A stretch of 31,699 bases of DNA from a virus, in IMG/VR virus record IMGVR_UViG_3300027759_000290, positions 1 to 31,699 of that record; one strand, 5' to 3'. Position 1 is the first letter of the stretch, and each line of letters begins with the position of its first letter. The notes under the pieces were generated by a model that was given only the letters and a program-made list of their open reading frames with translations, made no database searches and was not told the DNA's origin. Position numbers and translations under genes: made by a program. This document shows positions 3,654 to 31,699 of this stretch, piece after piece.

Positions 3654-3918
3654 TTAGCCTCTCCAATATGTTAGATCTTTTAGTCATATCTATCTTTTTT
3701 TGGCAAGAAGCGCACAAAGAAGTTTCATTATATCTACTTAGTTGATGCCCACATCTTTTGCACCCACGAGCAGCGCCTTGTCTAATTGCTTTTTTTTCAT
3801 AATACTTTTCCATAATTCTTCTATTTGTTGCCACTCTGCAACATTCGTCGTTATGATATTTTTGATTATGTGTTTTAGGCTCAAATTCTATAGCGCATTC
3901 TTTATTAGAACATATCAC
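3640..3918 (-). CDS. Double zinc-ribbon protein, GTG start
   Basis: From the GTG at 3918 this is a 92-residue protein. A first cysteine set near the N-terminus (C-S-N-K-E-C, then Y-H-N-D-E-C-C) and a second at about 52-72 (C-K-R-C ... C-A-S-C) could hold two zincs, linked by a basic helix (R-R-I-M-E-K-Y-Y-E-K-K). The frame stays open to an ATG at 3975, but that would overlap the upstream gene by 61 bases. The GTG overlaps its stop by four bases (GTGA), the rule in this operon, so I prefer it. The product is probably a nucleic-acid-binding accessory; no catalytic motif is visible. Confidence 0.62.
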   Translation of the reverse strand: MICSNKECAIEFEPKTHNQKYHNDECCRVATNRRIMEKYYEKKAIRQGAARGCKRCGHQLSRYNETSLCASCQKKIDMTKRSNILERLNEIS

Positions 3919-4700
3919 AGCTTGGGCACTTCTAGCATTTCTATTTGTACTGTTCCCGTTAAACCAGAATAACATTCTTTTTTAACTGGGCAGTAAGTGC
4001 ATGGAAGTTTAGACTTAGAAGATCCTGCTGGGCGCATAGGAAGATCTCCGTCTTTAAAGTTATCCCATACCTCACACATCCAAGTAAAAGTATCTTCTAT
4101 GATCTTAGTATTTTTTTCATTCATAGAAATTGGAATAACAATCAACTCTTGTGTATTTTTATTTTCGTATAAAAAGAATCCTTCTTTAGCATTTTTTAAT
4201 TTCATATACGTCAATAGCTGAAGAAGGTGATTGGCTGTGGGTTTCATTTCTGACTGACGGGCATCCCATACTTCTTGCTTAGCCGTCTTAATCTCACCAA
4301 TTACTTTCTCACCATCGTATTCCATAATTAAGTCAATGAATCCACGAACTGGAGGGTACTCATTAATAATCTCTTCTTCTTCTGTTCTAAACTCTGGCAT
4401 AGTTGCAATAAGTTTTTGCAATCTTTCGTGAGCCTGAGTTCCTTGAGCCATGTTAGCAACTGCTACAGCATCATTATCGTCAATAAACATTGCACCGCTA
4501 AAAGCCATATACCAATATCTAGGGCAATTACCATGTCCGTATCCTAAAGAACTAGGACTAAATGACTTCTTGGTCATCTCTCCATCAGCACGTTTGGTAT
4601 TACGATATGACTCATCTAATAGAGAGGCAAACTTTTCTGGGTCAAAGAACTTGCCCGTATGTTTTTTAAATTTAAGATTCTTTACAATATCTCTACCCAT
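3915..4700 (-). CDS. Cas4/RecB-like PD-(D/E)XK exonuclease with Fe-S cluster
   Basis: A 261-residue nuclease of the RecB/Cas4 type. In order: C59-P-R-Y-W-Y, G-T-Q-A-H91-E-R, D123 in G-F-I-D, E136 and K138 in G-E-I-K (the E-x-K active site), Q161-x3-Y165 (the family's QxxxY), then C234-x2-C237-x5-C243. C59 with the three C-terminal cysteines is the expected 4Fe-4S cluster ligand set of Cas4/AddB nucleases. Such enzymes resect DNA ends to ssDNA, here probably feeding the phage RecA. No CRISPR array or other cas gene is near, so a recombination role is likelier than spacer acquisition. The start shares TAATG with the gene upstream, and there is no good SD. Confidence 0.82.
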   Translation of the reverse strand: MGRDIVKNLKFKKHTGKFFDPEKFASLLDESYRNTKRADGEMTKKSFSPSSLGYGHGNCPRYWYMAFSGAMFIDDNDAVAVANMAQGTQAHERLQKLIATMPEFRTEEEEIINEYPPVRGFIDLIMEYDGEKVIGEIKTAKQEVWDARQSEMKPTANHLLQLLTYMKLKNAKEGFFLYENKNTQELIVIPISMNEKNTKIIEDTFTWMCEVWDNFKDGDLPMRPAGSSKSKLPCTYCPVKKECYSGLTGTVQIEMLEVPKL

Positions 4701-5038
4701 TATGAATTATACCTAACGACATACTTAAGTGCATCTACAAGTTTGTCTATGGACTCTTTTGCTGAATAATAAATATTTTTCTTGTTATTGTTTTCCGTGC
4801 CAGCTTTGTCTTTAGCAATAGTTGAATAGTATGAGGCCATCATAGAAAACTTAGTAGACATTGCCTGTAGTTCTATAATTAAATAAGGTGCTTTGGCAGA
4901 AGGGACATCTGGATTCATAAGCAACTTCACAACAATTGCAAGGACTCTATCTAATTGATCGTCTCCCATATACTCATGCAGATCGTTAAACTCTGTTATT
5001 GAACTTATTAGCTCTAATGTATTTTTATCTTCCGCCAT
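4700..5038 (-). CDS. Unknown 112-residue helical protein
   Basis: I do not recognise this protein beyond its general look. It is predicted to be mostly helical: an acidic first third, a hydrophobic stretch around 32-60 containing L-I-I-E-L-Q-A-M, and a C-terminal L-V-D-A-L-K-Y-V-V. It has no cysteine pairs, signal peptide or enzyme motif. GAGG lies about eight bases before the ATG. It ends in a TAATG junction with the Cas4-like nuclease, so it could be a partner of that enzyme, but nothing in the sequence proves this. Confidence 0.72.
   Translation of the reverse strand: MAEDKNTLELISSITEFNDLHEYMGDDQLDRVLAIVVKLLMNPDVPSAKAPYLIIELQAMSTKFSMMASYYSTIAKDKAGTENNNKKNIYYSAKESIDKLVDALKYVVRYNS
4706..4711 (-). 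promoter_or_regulatory. Possible -10 element before the Cas4-like gene
   Basis: On the minus strand TATAAT lies five bases before the ATG at 4700, a start without a good Shine-Dalgarno sequence. The hexamer falls inside the upstream gene's last codons (Tyr-Asn), has no recognisable -35 and lacks the TGn extension. It could drive a leaderless message or be chance. Confidence 0.22.
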
Positions 5039-16541: not shown

Positions 16542-16766
16542 TTATGCCTCTTCTACTGGGTACTTAGCAAGTTCTGCTGTTAGAGCAGAAATTTGTAAAT
16601 TAATTTCAGAAATTGAATCATTATATTTTTCAATTACTGATTCAGTTGGCGTAGATTTTGCATTTTCAACAATTTTGTCTACATCTAAATTATACTTTGC
16701 GTATAAAAGATTTTTAAGTCTTGAATTTATTACTTGAGCTTTATCTGCATTTGTTAATGTTGTCAT
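16542..16766 (-). CDS. Helical protein (74 residues) behind a strong promoter
   Basis: A 74-residue helical protein with two probable helices (about 6-35 and 45-68), the second with coiled-coil spacing (I-S-E-I-N-L-Q-I-S-A-L-T-A-E-L). Translation signals are the best in the window: AAGGAGG and an ATG about seven bases on. A consensus-like promoter lies immediately upstream, predicting a very short leader and high output. It may be an abundant assembly or fiber chaperone, but nothing shows this directly. Confidence 0.68.
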   Translation of the reverse strand: MTTLTNADKAQVINSRLKNLLYAKYNLDVDKIVENAKSTPTESVIEKYNDSISEINLQISALTAELAKYPVEEA

Positions 16767-16782
16767 TTTGTCCTCCTTTCAT

Positions 16783-16811
16783 ATTATAGCAATAAATAGG
16801 GTATCTGTCTA
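16783..16811 (-). promoter_or_regulatory. Strong extended -10 promoter within the tail module
   Basis: The minus strand has TAGACA (16806-16811), a 17-base spacer and TATAAT (16783-16788) with TGC directly before the hexamer. The -35 overlaps the TAG stop of the upstream gene. The predicted start near 16776 leaves about ten leader bases, with the SD at the very 5' end. By fit to consensus this is the best promoter in the window. Confidence 0.75.
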
Positions 16812-19575: not shown

Positions 19576-21423
19576 CTAATATTGTATCCATAGGTCGCCA
19601 TTTATTCCTGTACCTCCAGCTGGAGCACCGTCACTAGTTGGTCTAATGTAAACATTTCTAACATATCCGCCTGTGCTAGATCCAGTAATACCGCTATAGT
19701 TTTCAGCTATTCTAAAAGTTCCAGTATTTACAAAATTATCTTTGCCATTTAGTATTACTCCATAATCATTTCCAGAAGCAGCATATGCAGAGATTCCGCC
19801 TTGTCCACTATTGCCAGATAATAATTGAGAATAAATTGATACTGAACTTATTACGTAGCTGCTAATTGTAGTTAAAAGATTACTTATCTCTCCTGGAGAT
19901 GTTTCGTTACCGCTTCCAGAATAAAAATATAAAGCGTCATTTGCCCCTGAAATTTCTATTCTTTTTCCTGAAGATCTTGTTCTAATTGTTCCGCCAGTAA
20001 TTATTGCAGATGATGTAATATTGCCATTAAATTGACCATTAGTAAAAACTGCATCTGTAGCAGACATGTTACCACTCATGTCAACTGTAAACTTTGCAAG
20101 GGCTGTGCTACCAACTTTAATTCCTACAGAAGGATCTAGCTTAATAAAATTACCAGAGTCTGATGCTCCTGCGGTTGCTCTTAATATAATTTGAGGATTC
20201 GCTGATATTGGATCAAGCAGTATGCTTGGATAGGCATCAACTGAGCTTTTAAGAACTCCAGAATTAATTTGCCAATTACCAATTGATCCAGATGATGCAG
20301 TAATCTTTCCAGTTAAATCTACATCACTTGCCGTTAATACCCCGCCTGAGTTAACTGCAAACTTTCCAGAAGAAGTTGATATTGATGTTGCTGCAAGAGA
20401 GCCAGTTATAGAAAGGCCACCAGTTAAAGGAGCACTTAATATTGCTGCTCCTGCAGAGTTATAAATATGAAATCCTGATAGGACAGATCCTACTGTAGAG
20501 CTAGATAATTCTATTCTAGCACTAGATGATGTTCCAGCACGTATAAATGATGTTGCGCTTATATCTCCAGATTCAAGATTATTTACTGATATTGTACCAG
20601 CTGAGATATCAGTTATACCAGCTTTGCCTGGGCCTAGCGTTTGATTTGTTACATTTGCTTGTATTGTTCCAACTGTACCGTTTTTATTAACTGCCGCAGC
20701 ATGAATGTAAACCGCTTGTCCATATGACACATATGTTCCTAAAGGAACAACAATTGTGTTTTTAACATTGTTGCCAGTTAAAACGCCAACCTGTTCATAT
20801 GTTCCATTTGTTGCTGTGGCAGAATTACCTGCATATATATTAATTGCTTCAAATCCAGTAAATGTTGAAGATGCATATGTTCCAGCCCAAGAGACTTCTA
20901 TTCCAGCTAGGATACGTTTTGAAGTAAATCCGTTTGGATTTGTTGGGGACTGTATTGTTTCGCCAACATCTGCAACTGTTATTGTAAAAGTAGTTCCAAC
21001 ACTACTTGTAACTCCTGTAGGAGATATAGATCTTAATTGAACAACATAAGATCCCGCTGGTGCCGCAATTGTTATTGTTCCTACTGTCGTAAATGAGTGT
21101 GCTACTGTAGCTGTTCCAAATATTCCATTAGTTATAACCACATCTACTCTTTTAGCATTTGTTGGGAATGCAGAAAGGGTTACTGGGATACTTCCAGTTG
21201 ATGTTGATGGTACGCTTGCTGAAGATGGAACTGCTGGGGCTGTCTCATTTGAGGTTGTAATAAAAAATCCTGGAGACCAATCGCTTTTAGCGTCATTGTC
21301 ATATATCCATTGAAATTTAATAGCATATGTTTCATTTATTTTTAAGCCAACAGCCTTAAAATTAAAAAAGTTTTTATCCGTGTCTGGTTGAGGGGTTATA
21401 TTTAAATCTGCTGGATTAGACAT
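19576..21423 (-). CDS. Tail fiber / central tail tip protein
   Basis: A 615-residue structural protein. The first 160 residues include an FN3-like domain (I-K-F-Q-W-I-Y-D ... S-D-W-S-P). A second beta domain (about 170-265) follows. From about 270 it becomes a repetitive, Ser/Gly/Ala-rich beta region (A-G-T-I-S-V-N-N-L, then G-S-I-G-N-W-Q-I-N-S-G) like the stem of central tail fibers of the J/DUF1983 type. The C-terminus (D-L-W-I-Q-Y) resembles a fiber tip. It shares its start with the end of the upstream gene. It is probably a trimeric fiber used in host recognition. Confidence 0.66.
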   Translation of the reverse strand: MSNPADLNITPQPDTDKNFFNFKAVGLKINETYAIKFQWIYDNDAKSDWSPGFFITTSNETAPAVPSSASVPSTSTGSIPVTLSAFPTNAKRVDVVITNGIFGTATVAHSFTTVGTITIAAPAGSYVVQLRSISPTGVTSSVGTTFTITVADVGETIQSPTNPNGFTSKRILAGIEVSWAGTYASSTFTGFEAINIYAGNSATATNGTYEQVGVLTGNNVKNTIVVPLGTYVSYGQAVYIHAAAVNKNGTVGTIQANVTNQTLGPGKAGITDISAGTISVNNLESGDISATSFIRAGTSSSARIELSSSTVGSVLSGFHIYNSAGAAILSAPLTGGLSITGSLAATSISTSSGKFAVNSGGVLTASDVDLTGKITASSGSIGNWQINSGVLKSSVDAYPSILLDPISANPQIILRATAGASDSGNFIKLDPSVGIKVGSTALAKFTVDMSGNMSATDAVFTNGQFNGNITSSAIITGGTIRTRSSGKRIEISGANDALYFYSGSGNETSPGEISNLLTTISSYVISSVSIYSQLLSGNSGQGGISAYAASGNDYGVILNGKDNFVNTGTFRIAENYSGITGSSTGGYVRNVYIRPTSDGAPAGGTGINGDLWIQY

Positions 21424-22331
21424 TAGAACCCTAACTGCAACTTATATTCTATATCTACCTGTCTACCAGAAGTCTTTGTTACTATGTTTCCTCCAGTTAG
21501 TACAGACCTACTTATCATTCCGTAGTTGGCGTCAAATGTATCTTCGTCATTAATTCTGATCCCGTCAAAATAAACTGTCGTTGTTCCACTTGAGTTTGCT
21601 GTAACCTCAACTCCTAGTTTAATTATATTTTTAAAATCTGGTGCAGTTGCGGAAGTGTTTGAGAATAAATTATTTAATGTTGTAGACTGTATTTTATCTG
21701 GAGTTGCTCCTATAGCTTCTGGAGTAAAATCAACAAAACAATACTGTGTTGGAGAACTGTAAAATTTAAGTCTAATCTTAGAAACATTGTTATCTGCCTT
21801 TTTATATGCAATAGCAATGCTGTCATTTACGCTATATCCAGAAAGATCTAAACTGCCTAGCGGTGTTGTATATTCTTTAACTGTTGATAATGGAGTTTGA
21901 ACATAAACCATGTTCTCTCCAATTTTAGAAACTAATTGTGATGTGTTTAACTGCAGCAAAGGATTAAATCCATCAGAGTCTGTCCACAATAAATTATTGT
22001 CAAACTGAGTAATAAAATTACTATCAAAGTTATTTCTAGAAGTTCTAGATGCTGGGTACAAAGCTATTTCAGAAATTACTCCTGCAACATCCTGTGGTAT
22101 TGTTGCTTGATAAACTGCCTTGTATACATATACTGGTGACTGCTCTGTGCCAGTATTTGTAATATCAATGCTTCCAATAGTTACTGGCACTCTATAAAAT
22201 TCAAAATTTAGTCTTGTGTTGTCTGCGCTTGCCGCAGTGCTTCCTATGCCAAAGGCTAGCTCTTTCTGCCCAAAGTCGGCATTGCCAGCTAAATAGTTAG
22301 TTAAAAATCTTTTTCCAAATCTTGTTATCAT
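21423..22331 (-). CDS. Minor tail or baseplate protein (302 residues)
   Basis: A 302-residue beta-rich protein. The opening G-K-R-F-L-T-N-Y-L-A-G-N and G-I-G-S-T-A-A-S pattern recalls baseplate and fiber-connector proteins that begin with an attachment domain. The middle has an A-V-Y-Q-A-T-I-P core and an E-I-A-L-Y-P segment, followed from about 130 by a jelly-roll-like domain with Y-F-D-G-I-R-I-N. It sits between hub and fiber genes, so an adaptor for fibers is likely. The start overlaps the upstream stop as ATGA. Confidence 0.6.
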   Translation of the reverse strand: MITRFGKRFLTNYLAGNADFGQKELAFGIGSTAASADNTRLNFEFYRVPVTIGSIDITNTGTEQSPVYVYKAVYQATIPQDVAGVISEIALYPASRTSRNNFDSNFITQFDNNLLWTDSDGFNPLLQLNTSQLVSKIGENMVYVQTPLSTVKEYTTPLGSLDLSGYSVNDSIAIAYKKADNNVSKIRLKFYSSPTQYCFVDFTPEAIGATPDKIQSTTLNNLFSNTSATAPDFKNIIKLGVEVTANSSGTTTVYFDGIRINDEDTFDANYGMISRSVLTGGNIVTKTSGRQVDIEYKLQLGF

Positions 22332-22744
22332 ATAAGTTCTACCTTCGCATTCATTCCTTTTAGAGTCTCTCCACTTGAATTTTTTACTTTAAATACTAAT
22401 GTAACGCTTGGTTGCCCCGCCGCATCATAAACAACCGTATTTGATACTATTGATATATCGCTTAATGATGGAACTCCTACCCTTAAATTTGTACCAGAAG
22501 ATTCTCCCGCCTTAGCAGAAGCCTCAGACGATTCCGATCCTTCTACTAAAAAAGCATCTCCATCTGAAATATCATCTGATTGAACTTCTCCGCTAGATAG
22601 ATATAATGAAGATAAAGAGTTTCCTCTAATAATTCTAACTAAGGCTGGATCAAAATCATTTACCTCTGGAGAGTTGCTGTAAAGGGCAAACCTGCCTCCA
22701 CTGGTGACTCCAGTTCTAGATATTCTAGGGTTGTTTTTAGCCAT
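22328..22744 (-). CDS. Small tail protein, probably leaderless
   Basis: A 138-residue protein of unknown family. Residues 1-60 are polar, with a Y-L-S-S-G-E-V-Q-S-D-D-I turn; 60-85 is a Ser/Glu-rich linker; 90-138 looks like a small Ig-like beta sandwich (P-S-V-T-L-V-F-K-V-K). It lies among the hub and fiber genes, so it is probably a structural connector. There is no Shine-Dalgarno sequence before the ATG; instead an extended -10 promoter lies exactly six bases upstream. Its translation signal therefore differs from the neighbouring genes. Confidence 0.66.
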   Translation of the reverse strand: MAKNNPRISRTGVTSGGRFALYSNSPEVNDFDPALVRIIRGNSLSSLYLSSGEVQSDDISDGDAFLVEGSESSEASAKAGESSGTNLRVGVPSLSDISIVSNTVVYDAAGQPSVTLVFKVKNSSGETLKGMNAKVELI

Positions 22745-22750
22745 ATTTTT

Positions 22751-22759
22751 ATTATACCA
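22751..22759 (-). promoter_or_regulatory. Extended -10 promoter giving a leaderless start at 22744
   Basis: The minus strand reads TGGTATAAT, then six bases (AAAAAT), then the ATG at 22744. The start site expected six bases after a -10 hexamer is the A of that ATG. The element begins one base after the upstream stop codon. No -35 is evident, as expected for an extended -10. Confidence 0.62.
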
Positions 22760-22760
22760 T

Positions 22761-24602
22761 TTACTGACTATAAATAGATCTAGCCGTTATACTGGTACTT
22801 AGCCCCCCGTCAAAATTAGAATTTACATTTGTTACTAAGAACTTTTGGGTTCCGTTCAAATCATTTTTTGGGTAATTTACTGTAATTATATCCCCTACCT
22901 CAATTACTGGGTTTCCAAAAATTTCCATATTAATAGATTGCTGTTGCTTTGACCATTGTAATTTAATCCAATTAAATAAAGACTTGGCGTCCGCCTCTGA
23001 CTGTATCCATGTGGACTGAAAAGTGGCTGGCTCTAATGTAGTGTAGTCACTTGTGGTAGTCTCAGTATATTCATGCTGAGCGGTTATGTCAACATAATTT
23101 CCAAGAACAAAGAATTTATTTTCTGCGGCCTGCAATGGAATAAATGAGGATGCGTTGTTAATAACAAAAATTTCAGCAGAATGATTAGAAAATTTAGATC
23201 CCAGGACAGTTGCAAACTTATTAGTTCCCGTACTAGCGTAAAGAGGGATGGCGGCAGGCTGATTAAAGTTTGCCTTTACGTATCTTATTTCACGAGCAAC
23301 AGTTCCAAATTCTTCTAGGTAGGCAACTTTTCCTGTAGGAGAATTAAAATTTTGTGCAATCTTTTCTCCAAATGTGAAATCTAGGGTAGAGTCAGCGTAT
23401 TGTCCGCTATATAAACCTCTTGAAGCTGCGTCTGTAACTTGAGTAGCACTTACTGGATTTGCATAAACATAATCAAAATTTACTTTTTCTAAGACAGAAA
23501 ATAGCGCTATGTTGGCTGTTGGAGAAATTGATTTTAATAAAGGGCTCACGCTGCCAGCAGTATTTGTATCTACTGCACTAACTTTAAAGTTATTAACATA
23601 TACAGTAATTATTGTAGCAACATCTGTTATTACAACATCTATATCTAATTTATACAGAGTTGAAGATAGTACTCCTCCATATAGCCTTCCAGAATCAGTA
23701 TCTTGAGAGTCTTGTAAATATAATCTTTTGTTTGCTACAACTTTGTATATTTTAAGAGATTTGTCTTTTAAATCTTTATTAGAGGCGTCAGTTTGTAGTT
23801 CAACAAAGTATCCGTTTGACCCTACATCATCTGTAAAAAACCCTATGCCCCCACCAGACATTGGAGTATCTAAAGAACTTGTAAACAATATACCTGCTCC
23901 AAATGAGTACTTCTTATAGGATGTGGATATGTTAGTATTTTTTATTTCTAGCGCATACTTACTTCTATCTTTATACTTATTATTAACTTTAAAATATGAT
24001 CTTTGAACTTCTCTATTGCCGTAAGCTGCATAAGAAGATCCAGTAGCTGCGGCAGACAAAACAACTGCGTCTGTAGAGGCTCCTAAATCAATGCTTCCTG
24101 CTGAGTTAGCCAATGCTGCTGCTTTTTCTGCGGCAAGTACTTGAGCAAGACGTGCTTCGTCCATTGCGTCTAAAGATCCGCCTGTGCTTGTGTTTGTTGT
24201 TGGTGTTGTAGTTGAAGTAGTTGAAGCAGTTATTCCTCCAACACTTGCCGCTTTAGGCATTGTAAAAGATTCATAAATATATTCTCCATATGTACCAGTT
24301 GCCCCAGCTCCCGAATGTGCTCTGGCACGTAAGTTATATTTTGCTCCTGGTGTCAAATTTTCTCTTACGTAAGTACCACTTGTTGTTGTAAAAGTAAAAT
24401 CTGGATTACTAAAAGTTCCATTGCTTCCCACATCCCCCGCATAACTTCCTGGAGTAGATAAAGGGGTTCCAAGTGTTATGACTGCCCTGGTTGGAGAAGT
24501 TGTTTGAACTACAATGTACGGAATTTTTAAATTAGCAGGTGTAGCAGCAGTTGGTGTAGTATAAACTTCGCCAAACATGTAGTATTGAAAATTACTGGTC
24601 AT
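22761..24602 (-). CDS. Tail hub-type protein with lectin-like insert
   Basis: A 613-residue protein from the ATG at 24602 (ATGA overlap, GAGGTGG seven bases upstream); a TTG six bases earlier is too close to that SD. Residues about 26-116 resemble an FN3 domain. A Thr/Ser linker (124-142) and a short Ala-rich helix follow. Residues about 198-380 have the strand pattern of a concanavalin-like (LamG-type) sugar-binding domain (G-G-G-I-G-F-F-T-D-D ... L-D-I-D-V-V). The end (about 510-613; W-I-K-L-Q-W-S-K-Q, G-D-I-I-T-V-N-Y-P, G-G-L-S-T-S-I-T-A-R-S-I) matches the end of gp27/Tal-like hub proteins. Probably a tail-tip component. Confidence 0.66.
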   Translation of the reverse strand: MTSNFQYYMFGEVYTTPTAATPANLKIPYIVVQTTSPTRAVITLGTPLSTPGSYAGDVGSNGTFSNPDFTFTTTSGTYVRENLTPGAKYNLRARAHSGAGATGTYGEYIYESFTMPKAASVGGITASTTSTTTPTTNTSTGGSLDAMDEARLAQVLAAEKAAALANSAGSIDLGASTDAVVLSAAATGSSYAAYGNREVQRSYFKVNNKYKDRSKYALEIKNTNISTSYKKYSFGAGILFTSSLDTPMSGGGIGFFTDDVGSNGYFVELQTDASNKDLKDKSLKIYKVVANKRLYLQDSQDTDSGRLYGGVLSSTLYKLDIDVVITDVATIITVYVNNFKVSAVDTNTAGSVSPLLKSISPTANIALFSVLEKVNFDYVYANPVSATQVTDAASRGLYSGQYADSTLDFTFGEKIAQNFNSPTGKVAYLEEFGTVAREIRYVKANFNQPAAIPLYASTGTNKFATVLGSKFSNHSAEIFVINNASSFIPLQAAENKFFVLGNYVDITAQHEYTETTTSDYTTLEPATFQSTWIQSEADAKSLFNWIKLQWSKQQQSINMEIFGNPVIEVGDIITVNYPKNDLNGTQKFLVTNVNSNFDGGLSTSITARSIYSQ

Positions 24603-26500
24603 GTCCAAACCACCTCATATCCACTCCAAGAATTTACTATGTCTTGAGCTGTTGCATTGTGAGCTTCAATTGTTGTACTAAAAGCTCCTCTGGTTTTAAT
24701 TCTGTATTTTCCGCTAGGCTTAAAGGTTCCCTGTTTAGCCAAACCTATATATTTATTATTATCTGTTTTGCTTATTAAATCCACAAACTGTTTTGTTCCG
24801 TTAGAGTCTTCGTATTCAAATTGCACTGCGTCATACTCAATAATTTCAGAATCAATTGCTAGGTAGCCTGTGTAGTTGTAAGCTGTGGTTCCTAGTTCTT
24901 CTTCATTAATTACAGAAGGGCTTAAGATTAAATATGTTCCTGCTGCCTGATTTGAAGCTACTGATTGATTTAAAGAAAACGCTGACAGGAAATAAGTGTC
25001 TGATTCCCAAGGAGCCTGGGCGCTTTGGATTAGATTAGATGTTAGTACGCTATTCCAGAATACTTTTATTTGGTTGGCTGATGCTAAATCGTTTTTTTCA
25101 AAAGATAGTATGTTTGATAGGTTAGATCCAGATGTTTCACTTCTAAAATCCCAATTAGATGTTCGTGCAGCATCAAATATATAATCTCTACTATAAAACT
25201 CTAAAACATTTTTAGATGAAAATACTGCTGTCATTTGAGTATCTCTGCACAATTCTTGCAAAGAGTCCCAGACGGTTTGATCATTCTCTGTCCACCAAAA
25301 TGTCGGTGTAATAATAGAAGCGTCTGTAGACTTTATATTAATATTGTAATTAGTAAATCCAATTGCATCTAGCATTCTTCTTATAATACCAGAAGCAGAA
25401 AAATTTTCACACATAATCTTAGGGGCAATTGTTTCCTGTAGTATCTTTGCTCCATCTAGTGCAGTTAGTGATATATCTCCATACTCTGAGAAAGACCATG
25501 AGTCTGCATAGAAGGTTCCTTGAAGTATGTTATCGTATGTACCCTTTGAATCAGATAGTGCTCCTCCAGAGTTATAAACTTTAATGTATGGCTTAATTTC
25601 CATCTGCTTATACAAATATATCTTAGAGTTATCAAACGCAAGTGTCTTGTCAAATGATAAAATCTTTCGTACCGTTTCATACGATATCAAAGATAAAGAT
25701 AATGAGTTTGCAGATATCTTGCCTACTGGCATTAGATCTTCAGAGCTTGTTGATGATTCTTTAGCTATATCAAATGACACTAAATGTTCTGTAGCATCTA
25801 CTACCCACTTAGGAGATAGTTCAATAAGTCCTGTGTATTTTGAAGCCACCGCTCCAGTTGTAATCTTAACGCTTGTTAAATTAATTGGGGCGGATATAGT
25901 AGAAGGCTCTGTCTTTACCCAAGAAGTTCCATTGTAATATATAGTTACTGTGCCAGCATTATAATTCTTAACTCCATTTGTAGTAAATGGGACAATATCT
26001 GCATTAGTGCCAGATGCAAGAACTGATCCATTTCCAAATATACTCCATGTCGCTGGAGTTGAATGAGATAATTCAAATCTTGCTACTATCTTATTAGTTA
26101 TAATAGTTTTAGGATAACTTATAGTTACATCTAATCCAGTATTAATATTAGAGACATAGTATTTATATGTAGTATCTACTCCAGGGTAATATATTCTAAA
26201 GTTTGGGGTATATGTTAATGCTCCTGGCTTCTTATATCCTGAATCAACATCTCCAGAGATGGCATATTTTACTCCCGCCCCCTGTGGTCTAAATGGTTTA
26301 ATAATTGAATCTACTGGGAATAGTTTTTTAAATGGGGTATAAGTGGCTCCAGATGAATCTGTCTTTGATATATCCGCTCCAGATACGGTAACATTATCCA
26401 CGAGGGAGTTCATATTATATTCAAATATTAATTGTGTACCGTAGGTAACAGAGGTATTTTGCTCAATAGCGTCTTTAGCAGTTTGCGTTAATGTAATCAT
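24599..26500 (-). CDS. Tail hub / tail-associated protein
   Basis: A 633-residue protein. An N-terminal domain (1-230) contains an inserted discoidin-like beta region. From about 235 on it shows a hub pattern: F-D-I-A-K-E, then G-T-F-Y-A-D-S-W-S-F-S-E-Y-G-D-I-S-L-T-A-L-D, a helix with I-I-R-R-M-L-D-A-I-G-F, and D-Q-T-V-W-D-S-L-Q-E-L-C. This order is familiar from gp27-type baseplate hubs and minor tail proteins that close the tail tube. It lies two genes after the tape measure, where such a protein is expected. The last hub subdomain seems to be encoded in the next gene. Confidence 0.7.
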   Translation of the reverse strand: MITLTQTAKDAIEQNTSVTYGTQLIFEYNMNSLVDNVTVSGADISKTDSSGATYTPFKKLFPVDSIIKPFRPQGAGVKYAISGDVDSGYKKPGALTYTPNFRIYYPGVDTTYKYYVSNINTGLDVTISYPKTIITNKIVARFELSHSTPATWSIFGNGSVLASGTNADIVPFTTNGVKNYNAGTVTIYYNGTSWVKTEPSTISAPINLTSVKITTGAVASKYTGLIELSPKWVVDATEHLVSFDIAKESSTSSEDLMPVGKISANSLSLSLISYETVRKILSFDKTLAFDNSKIYLYKQMEIKPYIKVYNSGGALSDSKGTYDNILQGTFYADSWSFSEYGDISLTALDGAKILQETIAPKIMCENFSASGIIRRMLDAIGFTNYNINIKSTDASIITPTFWWTENDQTVWDSLQELCRDTQMTAVFSSKNVLEFYSRDYIFDAARTSNWDFRSETSGSNLSNILSFEKNDLASANQIKVFWNSVLTSNLIQSAQAPWESDTYFLSAFSLNQSVASNQAAGTYLILSPSVINEEELGTTAYNYTGYLAIDSEIIEYDAVQFEYEDSNGTKQFVDLISKTDNNKYIGLAKQGTFKPSGKYRIKTRGAFSTTIEAHNATAQDIVNSWSGYEVVWT

Positions 26501-26973
26501 TAGACCTCATCTAAGGTCAGGGATACGTTAAAATGGGGCTGTAAGCCTCTCTTAACAACTGTAAAATTACAGGATGAGATAATAACTGTATATGACTCAT
26601 AACCTGCTGAGGATTGATCTGAGCCCGTTTTAGCTAGGTTGACTCTTATATTAAAGCTTTGTTTGCCTTCGTCTCCAAAATAGAATGTTCGAAGGTCTTC
26701 TGCTCCCCACCCACCGTCTACTGTAAGGGTTCTGTATGCAGGCAACATTTCCCAAGATAATTGAAATTGTCTTTTATCTGCAATATGGTTTTTTCTTAGG
26801 GTACCGTTTGAAGTTCTAACTATTTTTTCAATTCTTTCTGTTCCTAGTTCTAGGGCACTTCTATTGTGCTCTGTAACTTTATTCCAAATCTTGACGGTTC
26901 CAGCGGGGCTAGCCAATAAGTCTTTAGCCTCAATATAAAGAATAGAGCCTCTAGGTAAAAATACAACAGCCAT
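26500..26973 (-). CDS. Distal-tail-position minor tail protein
   Basis: A 157-residue protein directly after the tape measure gene (TAATG overlap, GGAGG nine bases upstream). Strand-rich, with a central W-E-M-L-P-A-Y-R-T-L-T-V-D-G-G-W-G-A-E-D-L-R-T-F-Y segment and a C-terminal Q-P-H-F-N-V-S-L-T-L-D-E-V. The position is that of the distal tail protein of long-tailed phages, but it is shorter than a typical Dit and has no galectin-like second domain. The N-terminal half may match the Dit ring. Confidence 0.62.
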   Translation of the reverse strand: MAVVFLPRGSILYIEAKDLLASPAGTVKIWNKVTEHNRSALELGTERIEKIVRTSNGTLRKNHIADKRQFQLSWEMLPAYRTLTVDGGWGAEDLRTFYFGDEGKQSFNIRVNLAKTGSDQSSAGYESYTVIISSCNFTVVKRGLQPHFNVSLTLDEV

Positions 26974-29900
26974 TAGTAATTACCTCCCAAAGTTCTAACT
27001 CTTCCTTCTTTAGCACCAATTAGTGCCAATTCAGACTTGAACTGTTTCATTATATCATCTACTGTAATGTTTGTCCCGTTTAATTCTATATCAATATTAT
27101 AAATATTATTATTATATGAACTACTTACTCCGCCTGGGACAGAATTACTACTTCCGCTAGAAATATTATAACTTGGACCTAGTATGCTATTTGGAATAAT
27201 TTGTCCTCCAGAAGCAGGCACAAATAACTCTGGTCCACGCTCTCCCACTAGGTACGGCTGAGAAGAAGTCATTCCAGTAATTCCAGTTACTGCCCGCTTA
27301 ATGTATCCTCCCATTGCTTTTCTTTTTATATTTACAGTTCCTGATCTATCTGGAGAATCAGATGTAACTTCATAGCTATCTTTTCCTGATTGAAAAACTG
27401 TTCCTTTTGCGTAAGATATTCCACGTTCAACTAATTCTTTGGCAGAAACAGTTGTAATGGTTGTTGCGTATCTTCCAGAACTTACAGTTGTTGACTTTAG
27501 TGTATTCATTTTGTCGCCTGGTTTCGGAGCTCCGTTAGCTAAGATATTATAAATATCGGAAAGAGTGTGTCCTTCTTCTCCGACAATTTCTCCTGCAAAG
27601 CTTTTCATACTTCCAGACAAGGTTTCTAATTCAGATAAAGCTGCTCCTTTTGGCAAGACACCCAGACCAGTTTTTAATGGTATTCTAGCCCCAGAACTTT
27701 CATTGATTGGAAGAGGAATATATTTTCCATCTTTATCTTTTGAAAAATTGCCTTTAGCGTCTTTTGTTAAGTATTGACCATATGCCTTAAGCACTTCAGG
27801 ATTAGACTTAGCAGCAACTGCAATATCATTTAAAACGTTTGAAAAATCAACGTTAAAAGCATCTTTTTGAGCCTGAGTAGCTTTTGATGGATCTGTAAAA
27901 GCTCGCATCTTTGCTACTCTTGTTAATTCGTTTCCTAAGTCGGTAATGGTTTTAATTGTGGCACCAAGATTCTCTGCTTTTTTACCTTGGGAGGCTGCGC
28001 CTTCTTGTAAAGCAGATTTATACTCTTGATCTTTGTCTAGCAAAGCTTGCTGTTTTGCTTCTGCTTTTCTAGCACTTTCATCAATTCTTGCTTCAGCTGA
28101 TTTTAAGCTAGACTCTTTTTGTATTTGTTGAATTCTAATTTGTGCTGCTGCTGTAGCCTCATTGTCCCCACGGGCAACTGCCATTTGTAAATCTAGTTTT
28201 GCTTGTTGTAGTTCTAATTCAGCATTTTCTTTATCAAAGGTCTCTCTCAATGCACGTTTCTTAGCATCGGCACGTTCTTTAATAGCCTTGATCTCATCTT
28301 GAATTGCTTTAATTTGTTTCTTAGATAGTCCAGCCGAATCTATTTTATCTGTATTAGATTTTTTAGATGCAGCATCATATTGACCTTTAAGGGTATCTAA
28401 TAGTTTGGCAGCATTTCCTAAACCAATAACTGATCCGTTAAATACCAAAGCTTCGGTTCCTGCAGCATCTAATGCATAGCTAAATGTTGCAAGAGCCTCT
28501 GCTTGTGCTGAAGAGATTCTAGACAAATCCGTAGATACTCCTTGCAAATACAGTCTCCATTTTGCATACATTCCGCCTATAGTATCTGATTGATTTAAAA
28601 TTCCTGCAAGCTCTGGTCTTTGAGACTTTATTGTTTTAAGAGCATCTTTTCCAATTTCATTGTTTTTTACTCCAGCTTCAGCCATTCTTTCAAACTGGAT
28701 GGCAATAGCTTGCTGTTCATTTAATACTTTACCAGATGCATCTGATGTTCCAACTAAAGATTTTACTGCTGAGTCTATTGAAGATATTGCTGTTTCTATG
28801 TTTGAAGCAAAGGCCGACGCAGATAGTTGAGAAACATCCTTTATGTTTTGAGCCAGATTTTTTAATATAAATGTAGAAGAAGATGCTTGGTCTGTTATGC
28901 CGCTAAACATCTTAGATGATATTGCTCCAACTCCCTGACCAGCTTTATTAGAAGATTCAATTAAAGCATATATTAGATTAGTTGCATCTTCTACACTTTT
29001 ACCGCTAGATACCATTTGAGCTTTTAAATTTGCAGCCCAGTCGTTAATTTTAGTTGAATCTATATTGTTTAATATTGATAAAGTTTCAGGCATGTCTGAC
29101 TTTACACGCTCTTTTAATTCTTTAAGTTGTTGAATTGTTAAAGTAAGTCCCCTTGTTCCAGATGATGTATAGGATTCAAAGTAAGCCTTTGCTTTGTCTG
29201 CCGCTAACTTTTGCTCTTCACGTAAATTTTTTAATTTATCTGTTAATGAAACATAGGTTATGCCTAGCTCTTTAGCACTTTTTTCTGTAACCCCAAACAT
29301 GCTGGTCTGCTCACGCTTATTTTCTTCAACATTCTTTCTCCACATTTTAAATACTGAAACTAATGCGGTTACTCCTACTACAGCTAATCCTACTGGTCCA
29401 GTAAAGAATTTAACAGCTGTTCCAGCAATTCTAAATACTGTTCCTGAAATTGAGCCAAGTGTTTTTAATAGAGCAGATGCTTTTGTCAGGCCTCCCATAA
29501 GACCTTTAAGTCCACTTAACATTGGTAAAAATTGCATAGCCATACCAGCAGAACTCATTATAGTTCCCGCTGTTCCTCCCACAGAATTTCCAGCCATGCT
29601 TAATCCCATACCGCCCATAAACATTCCTGTTTGACCCATAGCACTCATGCCGCCACCGCCAGATTGTTTATTTCTAGCATTTTGGAATTCTGAAGCGAAT
29701 GCTCCAACTACTCCCTTTTTAAATCCTAGTATTGAGTCTACAGGATAACCTTTATTCATTAAAGCTAAAGTTCCTTCATTGCCGCTAGTAGCAGTTTTTG
29801 TAACAACAGACTCTCCTGGCTCTAGCAAAGCTGGAATAGAATCTCCTCCGCCGTATCCTGGAAGCTTTGTAATTCCATCTTCAAAACCAGGAACTCCCAT

Positions 29901-31699
29901 AGCAGTATTTTCTTTTAGGTCAATCTGAAACAGACCCATGTTTCTTGAGTGTGCATCTGAGCCAAGTGGGTTTGTTTTTCTAACCATTTGAGGCTTGGCA
30001 CCACTTTGAATTGCTCTAACAGAAGCATTATTTAAATATTTACCAAATATACTTTCTGTTATAGGACCTTTGTGATTTGCAATTTTATGATTTAATACTC
30101 TTGCTGCGTTATCAGCCATACGCTTTGCATATACTGGAGGAATCCCTTGAGACTTTAAAAATAGCAGAAGGCTGACCATATCCTCACCCTGAACTGGTCT
30201 AAAATCAACAGGGAAAGCATTGCCGTCTCTTAATCCTTCATTAAAACCTTTTCTATTTTTAATAAACTGTGTTGGAAGAAGCTGTAAAGAATCTCTTCCA
30301 GCTACCTTTTTTGATAACTGTAGGTTGTAATCTGAATATTGAGACCTGTCTACTACACCCGAAGATCCTTTTGATGAAAGGCCTTGGGTTCTTTGAATAA
30401 ACCCTGGCACCATGCCGTGAACTAAATATTCATTATCTTGACCAGCAATTTTTTTAGTTGGTGTAATACCATATGCTTGGAATTCAGGGTCATCATAAAC
30501 TTTTGATTTTCTTTTATATAGTTCTCCGTAACTGATTCCAGCACCATCTTCTGCGCCCGCCCTTGGAGATCTGGTTGAAGGAATTCTTACTCCACCAATT
30601 TTTGTAGATTGAGTTCTAAAAGCCCTTAACATTTTAGCGGCTTTTATTGCCGCCGCAATTGATGTGTAGCCTGCAGCATATTTTTGAACTCCTACTTCAC
30701 CCATTGCTAATCTTCTAGGCTTGGTTGTTTCAATATTGTATCCTGCTCCTGAAGTTCTTACTCCAAGTGCCCCTGCTACTTTATTAATAAAGTTTTTGGT
30801 GCTGCCCTTTTTAAATAGTTCTCTCATATTAGACTTACCAGTAGGGTCAACTACTGGTTGATTTAATGTAGGAATCATTGTTGGGTTAATTGTTCTTCCC
30901 ATTGAAGCTGCTTGAGCTTGTGTTGCTTGTACCATCATTCTTTCTATATCTAAGTTTAACTGTATAATTCTGGCTTTTGCCTGCTCTATATTAATTGTTC
31001 CTGCTCGCAACTGTGAAACAATCGCTGCAGACTGCTGTGCTGCACTAGTAGTAAGTTGAGATACTACGGGAAGCATTCCATCAAATTGAACCATTAAATC
31101 TTTGCTGACTGTTCCAGTTGCAACAATTTGTTTCTTAAGAGTAGCAATTTCTTCTTTAGATTGCATTGCTAATGTTGCCATCATTGCGTGGTGCCTTGCG
31201 GCTTCCCCAGCAACAATTCCTGTTGATACTCCGTTTATTCTAGTTAATCCAGGAACATTTGGAAGATCTTGCTCCATATATATCTGTGGGTTTTGACCAA
31301 TCTTTTGATTTACTGGGCCTGAGCCTGGAACCATGCCAAACATTGTTTGCTGAAGTCTTTGTGATTCGGTCATTCCAGAACGTGGAACCATGTGAGAACT
31401 TGACCTTGTTCCCATTGGTCCAACTAATGGGTGTGAAGGATCTACTACTCTTCCGCCTGCCATAACAAGATTACCAGCCATTGTTGAAACTGCTGGATTA
31501 ACTGACATTGCACCAGCTTTAGCTTTTGTTTCTAATAACGAAAATTCGTCAAGCAAGTTTCTAAGTGCTTGTTGTAATACTGATGCTGCTTTAGCATCGC
31601 TATAAAATGTTTCTTCTACTAACTTTCCAGCTTTTTGTGCCGCTAACATTTCTGGAGTTAAATATTTAAATCCTTCTCCACCTTTAAAGAATGCTTTTA
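26973..31699 (-). CDS. Tape measure protein (N-terminus outside window)
   Basis: At least 1575 residues; the frame is still open at base 31699, so the true start is outside. Tape measure proteins set tail length and may help DNA cross the host envelope. Numbering from the Met at 31649: helical N-terminal segments; a long region around 330-580 with little coiled-coil; the motif G-G-G-D-S-I-P-A-L-L-E-P-G-E (about 595-610) typical of these proteins; Gly/Ala/Met-rich hydrophobic segments (about 660-775); a charged coiled coil (about 1105-1210); and near the C-terminus Y-L-V-G-E-R-G-P-E-L-F-V-P (about 1470), another tape measure hallmark. Length alone suggests a tail well over 200 nm. Confidence 0.92.
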   Translation of the reverse strand, partial: KAFFKGGEGFKYLTPEMLAAQKAGKLVEETFYSDAKAASVLQQALRNLLDEFSLLETKAKAGAMSVNPAVSTMAGNLVMAGGRVVDPSHPLVGPMGTRSSSHMVPRSGMTESQRLQQTMFGMVPGSGPVNQKIGQNPQIYMEQDLPNVPGLTRINGVSTGIVAGEAARHHAMMATLAMQSKEEIATLKKQIVATGTVSKDLMVQFDGMLPVVSQLTTSAAQQSAAIVSQLRAGTINIEQAKARIIQLNLDIERMMVQATQAQAASMGRTINPTMIPTLNQPVVDPTGKSNMRELFKKGSTKNFINKVAGALGVRTSGAGYNIETTKPRRLAMGEVGVQKYAAGYTSIAAAIKAAKMLRAFRTQSTKIGGVRIPSTRSPRAGAEDGAGISYGELYKRKSKVYDDPEFQAYGITPTKKIAGQDNEYLVHGMVPGFIQRTQGLSSKGSSGVVDRSQYSDYNLQLSKKVAGRDSLQLLPTQFIKNRKGFNEGLRDGNAFPVDFRPVQGEDMVSLLLFLKSQGIPPVYAKRMADNAARVLNHKIANHKGPITESIFGKYLNNASVRAIQSGAKPQMVRKTNPLGSDAHSRNMGLFQIDLKENTAMGVPGFEDGITKLPGYGGGDSIPALLEPGESVVTKTATSGNEGTLALMNKGYPVDSILGFKKGVVGAFASEFQNARNKQSGGGGMSAMGQTGMFMGGMGLSMAGNSVGGTAGTIMSSAGMAMQFLPMLSGLKGLMGGLTKASALLKTLGSISGTVFRIAGTAVKFFTGPVGLAVVGVTALVSVFKMWRKNVEENKREQTSMFGVTEKSAKELGITYVSLTDKLKNLREEQKLAADKAKAYFESYTSSGTRGLTLTIQQLKELKERVKSDMPETLSILNNIDSTKINDWAANLKAQMVSSGKSVEDATNLIYALIESSNKAGQGVGAISSKMFSGITDQASSSTFILKNLAQNIKDVSQLSASAFASNIETAISSIDSAVKSLVGTSDASGKVLNEQQAIAIQFERMAEAGVKNNEIGKDALKTIKSQRPELAGILNQSDTIGGMYAKWRLYLQGVSTDLSRISSAQAEALATFSYALDAAGTEALVFNGSVIGLGNAAKLLDTLKGQYDAASKKSNTDKIDSAGLSKKQIKAIQDEIKAIKERADAKKRALRETFDKENAELELQQAKLDLQMAVARGDNEATAAAQIRIQQIQKESSLKSAEARIDESARKAEAKQQALLDKDQEYKSALQEGAASQGKKAENLGATIKTITDLGNELTRVAKMRAFTDPSKATQAQKDAFNVDFSNVLNDIAVAAKSNPEVLKAYGQYLTKDAKGNFSKDKDGKYIPLPINESSGARIPLKTGLGVLPKGAALSELETLSGSMKSFAGEIVGEEGHTLSDIYNILANGAPKPGDKMNTLKSTTVSSGRYATTITTVSAKELVERGISYAKGTVFQSGKDSYEVTSDSPDRSGTVNIKRKAMGGYIKRAVTGITGMTSSQPYLVGERGPELFVPASGGQIIPNSILGPSYNISSGSSNSVPGGVSSSYNNNIYNIDIELNGTNITVDDIMKQFKSELALIGAKEGRVRTLGGNY

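Follow-up and report, generated by a model that had tools for sequence, protein, structure and literature searches.

What allows a gene inside a phage tail operon to be expressed when no Shine-Dalgarno (SD) sequence precedes its start codon? The question is raised by the viral DNA of IMG/VR record IMGVR_UViG_3300027759_000290 (positions 1 to 31,699, the whole 31,699-nucleotide stretch being referred to as the window), in which a gene for a small tail-cluster protein of 138 amino acids (22328..22744, minus strand) starts almost directly behind its upstream neighbor. The data presented below point, with a probability of roughly 90%, to a leaderless promoter of the sigma-70 type with an extended -10 element, located among the tail genes of an actinobacteriophage. 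It is best read as a deeply conserved promoter that opens a distal tail transcription unit, the kind of element itself being already known.

On the minus strand, the junction reads ...AGTCAGTAA A TGGTATAAT AAAAAT ATG GCT.... The TAA stop codon of the upstream gene (22763-22761) is followed by a single A at 22760 and by the extended -10 element TGGTATAAT (22751..22759); the A-rich spacer AAAAAT (22745..22750) then separates this element by six bases from the ATG start codon (22742..22744). This reading confirmed the initial annotation, which had placed the promoter element one base after the upstream stop with its end six bases before the ATG at 22744. The A of this ATG is the predicted first transcribed base (+1). 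The gene had also been described as lacking an SD sequence, and indeed no SD-like tetramer was found upstream of gene 22328-22744. The accompanying claim that most neighbors carry one held only roughly, as several genes of the window have no clear SD sequence, e.g. 26973-31649 and 19576-21423. The -10 hexamer near TATAAT, its end six to seven bases before the ATG, and the missing SD sequence are the features of a leaderless sigma-70-type start. The TG one base upstream of the hexamer, present in the environmental group, and the lack of a good -35 box in the window (the best candidate at 16 to 18 bp from the -10 element matches only 2 of 6 positions) are those of an extended -10 promoter. In the window, TGNTATAAT-N6-ATG occurs once; dinucleotide shuffles give an expectation of 0.04, and one occurrence is reached in 4 of 100 of them. 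This count is weak alone and decisive together with the comparative data.

Among the first relatives of the small-protein gene, AAATGGTATAAT was present before the start codon even at 41% protein identity. A further set of loci was fetched by homology to the upstream minor tail protein, of which the C-terminal 250 residues were used, in order to avoid selection for the motif; the alignment behind the fetch (A2) partly held members found by the motif, whereas the scan itself used the protein pattern only. Loss of the -10 element in relatives had been set beforehand as a refuting observation, and it was looked for at this step. Of the untruncated junctions, 79 in number, 78 kept the pattern: 77 were recognized by a regular expression and one more, L164, has an upstream frame that runs past the promoter. 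The sole exception (L136/L006) is a deletion that fuses both genes and removes the own start of the gene in this position (slot gene). The resulting in-frame fusion of upstream tail gene and slot gene (L136 6001-7100, L006 6165-8363) may be a natural variant or an assembly artefact.

After removal of near-duplicates, 38 non-redundant junctions remained, with a spacing between -10 element and ATG of six bases in 34, seven in three, and five in one. None of the 38 had an SD-like tetramer, versus 29 of 37 following genes (local background 17%). TGGTATAAT was essentially invariant in the 34 junctions with N6 spacing, and ATG was the start codon in all aligned junctions. Conservation is concentrated in a 12-base core, AAATGGTATAAT (22751..22762, minus strand), the AAA of which shares the last two bases of the upstream stop codon. 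Positions -18 to -7 are essentially invariant at near 2 bits each, and the flanks drift at much lower values, with proteins diverging down to about 20% identity. The sequence logo was built from loci picked with TG[AG]TATAAT-N5-7-ATG, which omits only L136 and L185 of the 80 fetched loci. Within the fetched loci, TGNTATAAT stands 5 to 7 bases before an open reading frame (ORF) of at least 60 codons at this gene only.

The upstream tail protein matched, among named phages, only Streptomyces phages (127 records). Their Stanwilliamsviridae-type tail module has the order tape measure, small protein, minor tail, small hypothetical, overlapping minor tail, large minor tail protein; Sham and Tomas are arranged in this way, the slot being filled by a small hypothetical gene, and the window shares the arrangement with the minor tail protein in two ORFs. 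In all 16 sampled phages, from both subfamilies, TATAAT precedes the slot-gene ATG (N6 in 11, N7 in 5), and no SD sequence was found at any of these 16 genes. The TG is missing from the Streptomyces-phage junctions; in its place, Loccivirinae carry a TTGACT -35 box at 17 bp and Boydwoodruffvirinae a weaker box of the TTTTGC type. An exchange of TG for a -35 box would be predicted for a sigma-70 promoter, not for a translation signal. Strong hairpins were observed at some of the Streptomyces-phage junctions (L218 238-295, L219 237-292, L226 263-301, L134 4858-4895). As no sampled phages other than BillNye, Muntaha, Coruscant, and Tomas have a strong one, a junction hairpin was rejected as a general feature; in Coruscant and Tomas, most of the start region of a read-through RNA would be sequestered by the hairpin, which would favor translation from the leaderless message.

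The spacing was further surveyed in 678 kb from seven relatives, with permuted hexamers as control. Upstream of ORF ATG codons, TGNTATAAT occurred 18 times at distance 6, three times at distance 7, and not at all at distances 1-5 or 8-14, versus 0.0-0.6 for the permuted hexamers; a second rise around 24-30 bases is as expected for leadered genes. TATAAT was found 37 times at distance 6 from ATG at a background of 4.4, and only once each from GTG and TTG, without a peak. The sharp, ATG-specific peak at distance 6 reads as a signature of leaderless transcription; leaderless starts therefore seem to be in general use in these phages, the tail-junction promoter being the example that is kept throughout. 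Together with the conservation of TATAAT-N6-ATG in environmental and Streptomyces phages, this peak strongly supports the leaderless promoter inside the tail operon proposed in the initial annotation.

With regard to the host, WhiB genes were identified in 6 of 12 relatives, and among 14 control genomes a WhiB signal was obtained in Corynebacterium only. No gene with sigma-70 region 2 was found in seven relatives, and a scan of bacterial genomes with the upstream tail protein gave no relatives and thus no host. An actinobacterial host that provides its own sigma factor would be the simplest reading. The earlier suggestion of such a host stands on the Streptomyces-phage homologs and WhiB genes, not on the promoter alone.

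Leaderless initiation is well established in Actinobacteria (PMC4633059, PMC4681348). Mycobacterial leaderless genes have the -10 element at the same spacing and need only ATG or GTG at +1 (PMC4633059), and 264 mRNAs of Streptomyces coelicolor have leaders under 10 nucleotides (PMC4681348). The junction studied here resembles the leaderless genes of both in the -10 element spaced for a +1 at the A of ATG, the missing SD sequence, and the ATG/GTG specificity; the 5' ends of those bacterial genes have been mapped, whereas here a phage tail cluster is assessed from its sequence only. Predicted leaderless SigA-like promoters with +1 at the first start-codon base are also present in Cluster O mycobacteriophages such as Corndog, PL2 lying in the structural region (PMC4351075); unlike these, the promoter described here has the same direction as the tail operon and is shared across a deep phage lineage. 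The promoter of the leaderless lambda cI mRNA is likewise placed so that the message begins with AUG (mentioned in PMC4681348), but it serves the repressor gene of a temperate phage and not a structural gene. The literature searched, which covered few subscription-journal papers, contained no description of this conserved tail promoter.

From these observations, we infer how the promoter would act and what purpose it might serve. Host RNA polymerase with the main sigma factor would recognize AAATGGTATAAT, which would compensate for the missing -35 box, and RNA synthesis would start at the A of the ATG, giving a message without a 5' leader. Translation would then proceed by the leaderless initiation route of the host, for which a 5'-terminal AUG or GUG suffices. 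The following tail gene (21423..22331, minus strand; 302 amino acids, phrog_9983 tail protein) lies on the same predicted message. It overlaps the 138-residue gene by four bases (ATGA) in the window, an overlap found in 55 of 76 loci (window included), with a gap of at most 11 bases in all. Because of this overlap, and because no minus-strand terminator is predicted before 15560, the message is predicted to be polycistronic. It should extend over at least the next tail gene, probably over all of the distal tail block; the proposal of a promoter for one tail protein alone was thus not supported. The distal genes could in this way be expressed at a different time or level from the upstream tape-measure and minor tail genes.

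Some points weigh against the leaderless host-type promoter: the conserved core, with AAATGG at -18 to -13, exceeds the TGn of an ordinary extended -10 element, it also spells AUG GUA UAA in the environmental group, and the assignment of the host by Streptomyces-phage homologs and WhiB is indirect. The alternative that survives best, in itself improbable, is a promoter with its start site a few bases off the ATG, yielding short-leadered or mixed starts and not strictly leaderless ones. Junctions with N5 and N7 spacing occur, the spacer is rich in A, and polymerases select their start from several purines; on the other side stand the peak at exactly 6 with a smaller one at 7 and the lack of an SD sequence for a leadered message. 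Recognition of AAATGGTATAAT by a phage-specific sigma or late-gene factor would account for a core longer than the housekeeping extended -10 element. We give it a small chance, as no sigma-70 region 2 domain was found in the seven relatives surveyed, the hexamer equals the housekeeping consensus, and Loccivirinae carry the TTGACT box.

Smaller still is the chance that the conserved string acts in translation of a read-through message, by reinitiation on the mini-ORF AUG-GUA-UAA or by scanning to the AUG, with TATAAT being incidental. The minigenes of lambda bar offer a parallel, and ATG[G/A]TATAAT is present in 38 of 38 non-redundant environmental junctions, close after the upstream stop. However, none of the Streptomyces junctions shown contains the mini-ORF, and TATAAT-N6/7-ATG is kept in them together with a -35-like box; TTTACA-N17-TATAAT-N6-ATG stands at a different gene in L006 and L011, with TTGG and no such ATG, and the genome-wide peak at distance 6 is typical of promoters. 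That the string is coding, the gene starting upstream with KWYNKN as part of the protein, is highly improbable: the 18 bases are open and in frame with the ATG in N6 members, but the window has no ATG, GTG, or TTG upstream in that frame, N5 and N7 members break the frame, core codons are not exchanged for synonymous ones, and the peptide is missing from the Streptomyces phages. Both the mini-ORF and the coding reading were therefore set aside.

Returning to the leaderless promoter, we tentatively suggest, as a possibility somewhat short of even odds, that it divides the tail genes of a large actinophage lineage into a proximal and a distal transcription unit, that distal tail synthesis depends on leaderless translation by the host, and that AAATGGTATAAT is a lineage-specific element longer than the classical extended -10. 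Across a broad actinophage group, in which the surrounding genes diverge, few stretches of DNA in this part of the tail cluster are conserved as well as this element. It offers a well-defined site for testing leaderless translation in the expression of phage structural genes, including those of culturable Streptomyces phages, and it helps to define where genes begin in phages for which SD-based annotation does not work.

The small protein has a variable N-terminal part, an acidic middle of low confidence, and a conserved C-terminal beta segment; most members have about 115-140 residues. No matches were found in named phages, Pfam, or PHROGs, and the AlphaFold2 model was of low confidence (predicted local distance difference test, pLDDT, 64; predicted template modeling score, pTM, 0.25). 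Profile comparison with the Streptomyces-phage slot protein gave a P value of 0.00095 but a probability of 22%; kinship of the two, which occupy the same genomic position, is likely by position and weak by profile. The upstream minor tail protein (phrog_10359) is one protein of approximately 1060 residues in Streptomyces phages and is encoded in the window by two overlapping minus-strand ORFs (22761-26500), 24599-26500 and 22761-24608 (TTG start). The latter represents the C-terminal part, and its stop lies directly before the promoter. The two ORFs may reflect a split gene or possibly a frameshift.

Similar arrangements were observed at other genes. A family of approximately 580 residues (MSYxLKVIKDxPIGFW..., possibly a LamG-like tail protein) recurrently carries TGGTATAAT-N6-ATG (L232, L249, L260). 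A motif-conditioned scan of viral contigs, which gives leads only, revealed a family of approximately 224 residues (MDNINASVVVRKPSMTPSGWFG...) with AAATGGTATAAT-N6-ATG in at least seven contigs among the matches listed (L026, L027, L044, L056, L108, L112, L121). Further leaderless candidates on the minus strand of the window are TTGATT-N17-TATACT-N7-ATG (1142-1178) before gene 600-1142 and AGGTATAAT-N5-ATG (4700-4715) before gene 3915-4700. In contrast to the leaderless site at 22744, the near-consensus promoter TAGACA-N17-TGCTATAAT (16766-16811, minus strand), which precedes a gene for 74 amino acids (16542-16766), has a strong SD sequence (AAAGGAGGACAAA) in the very short leader behind it.
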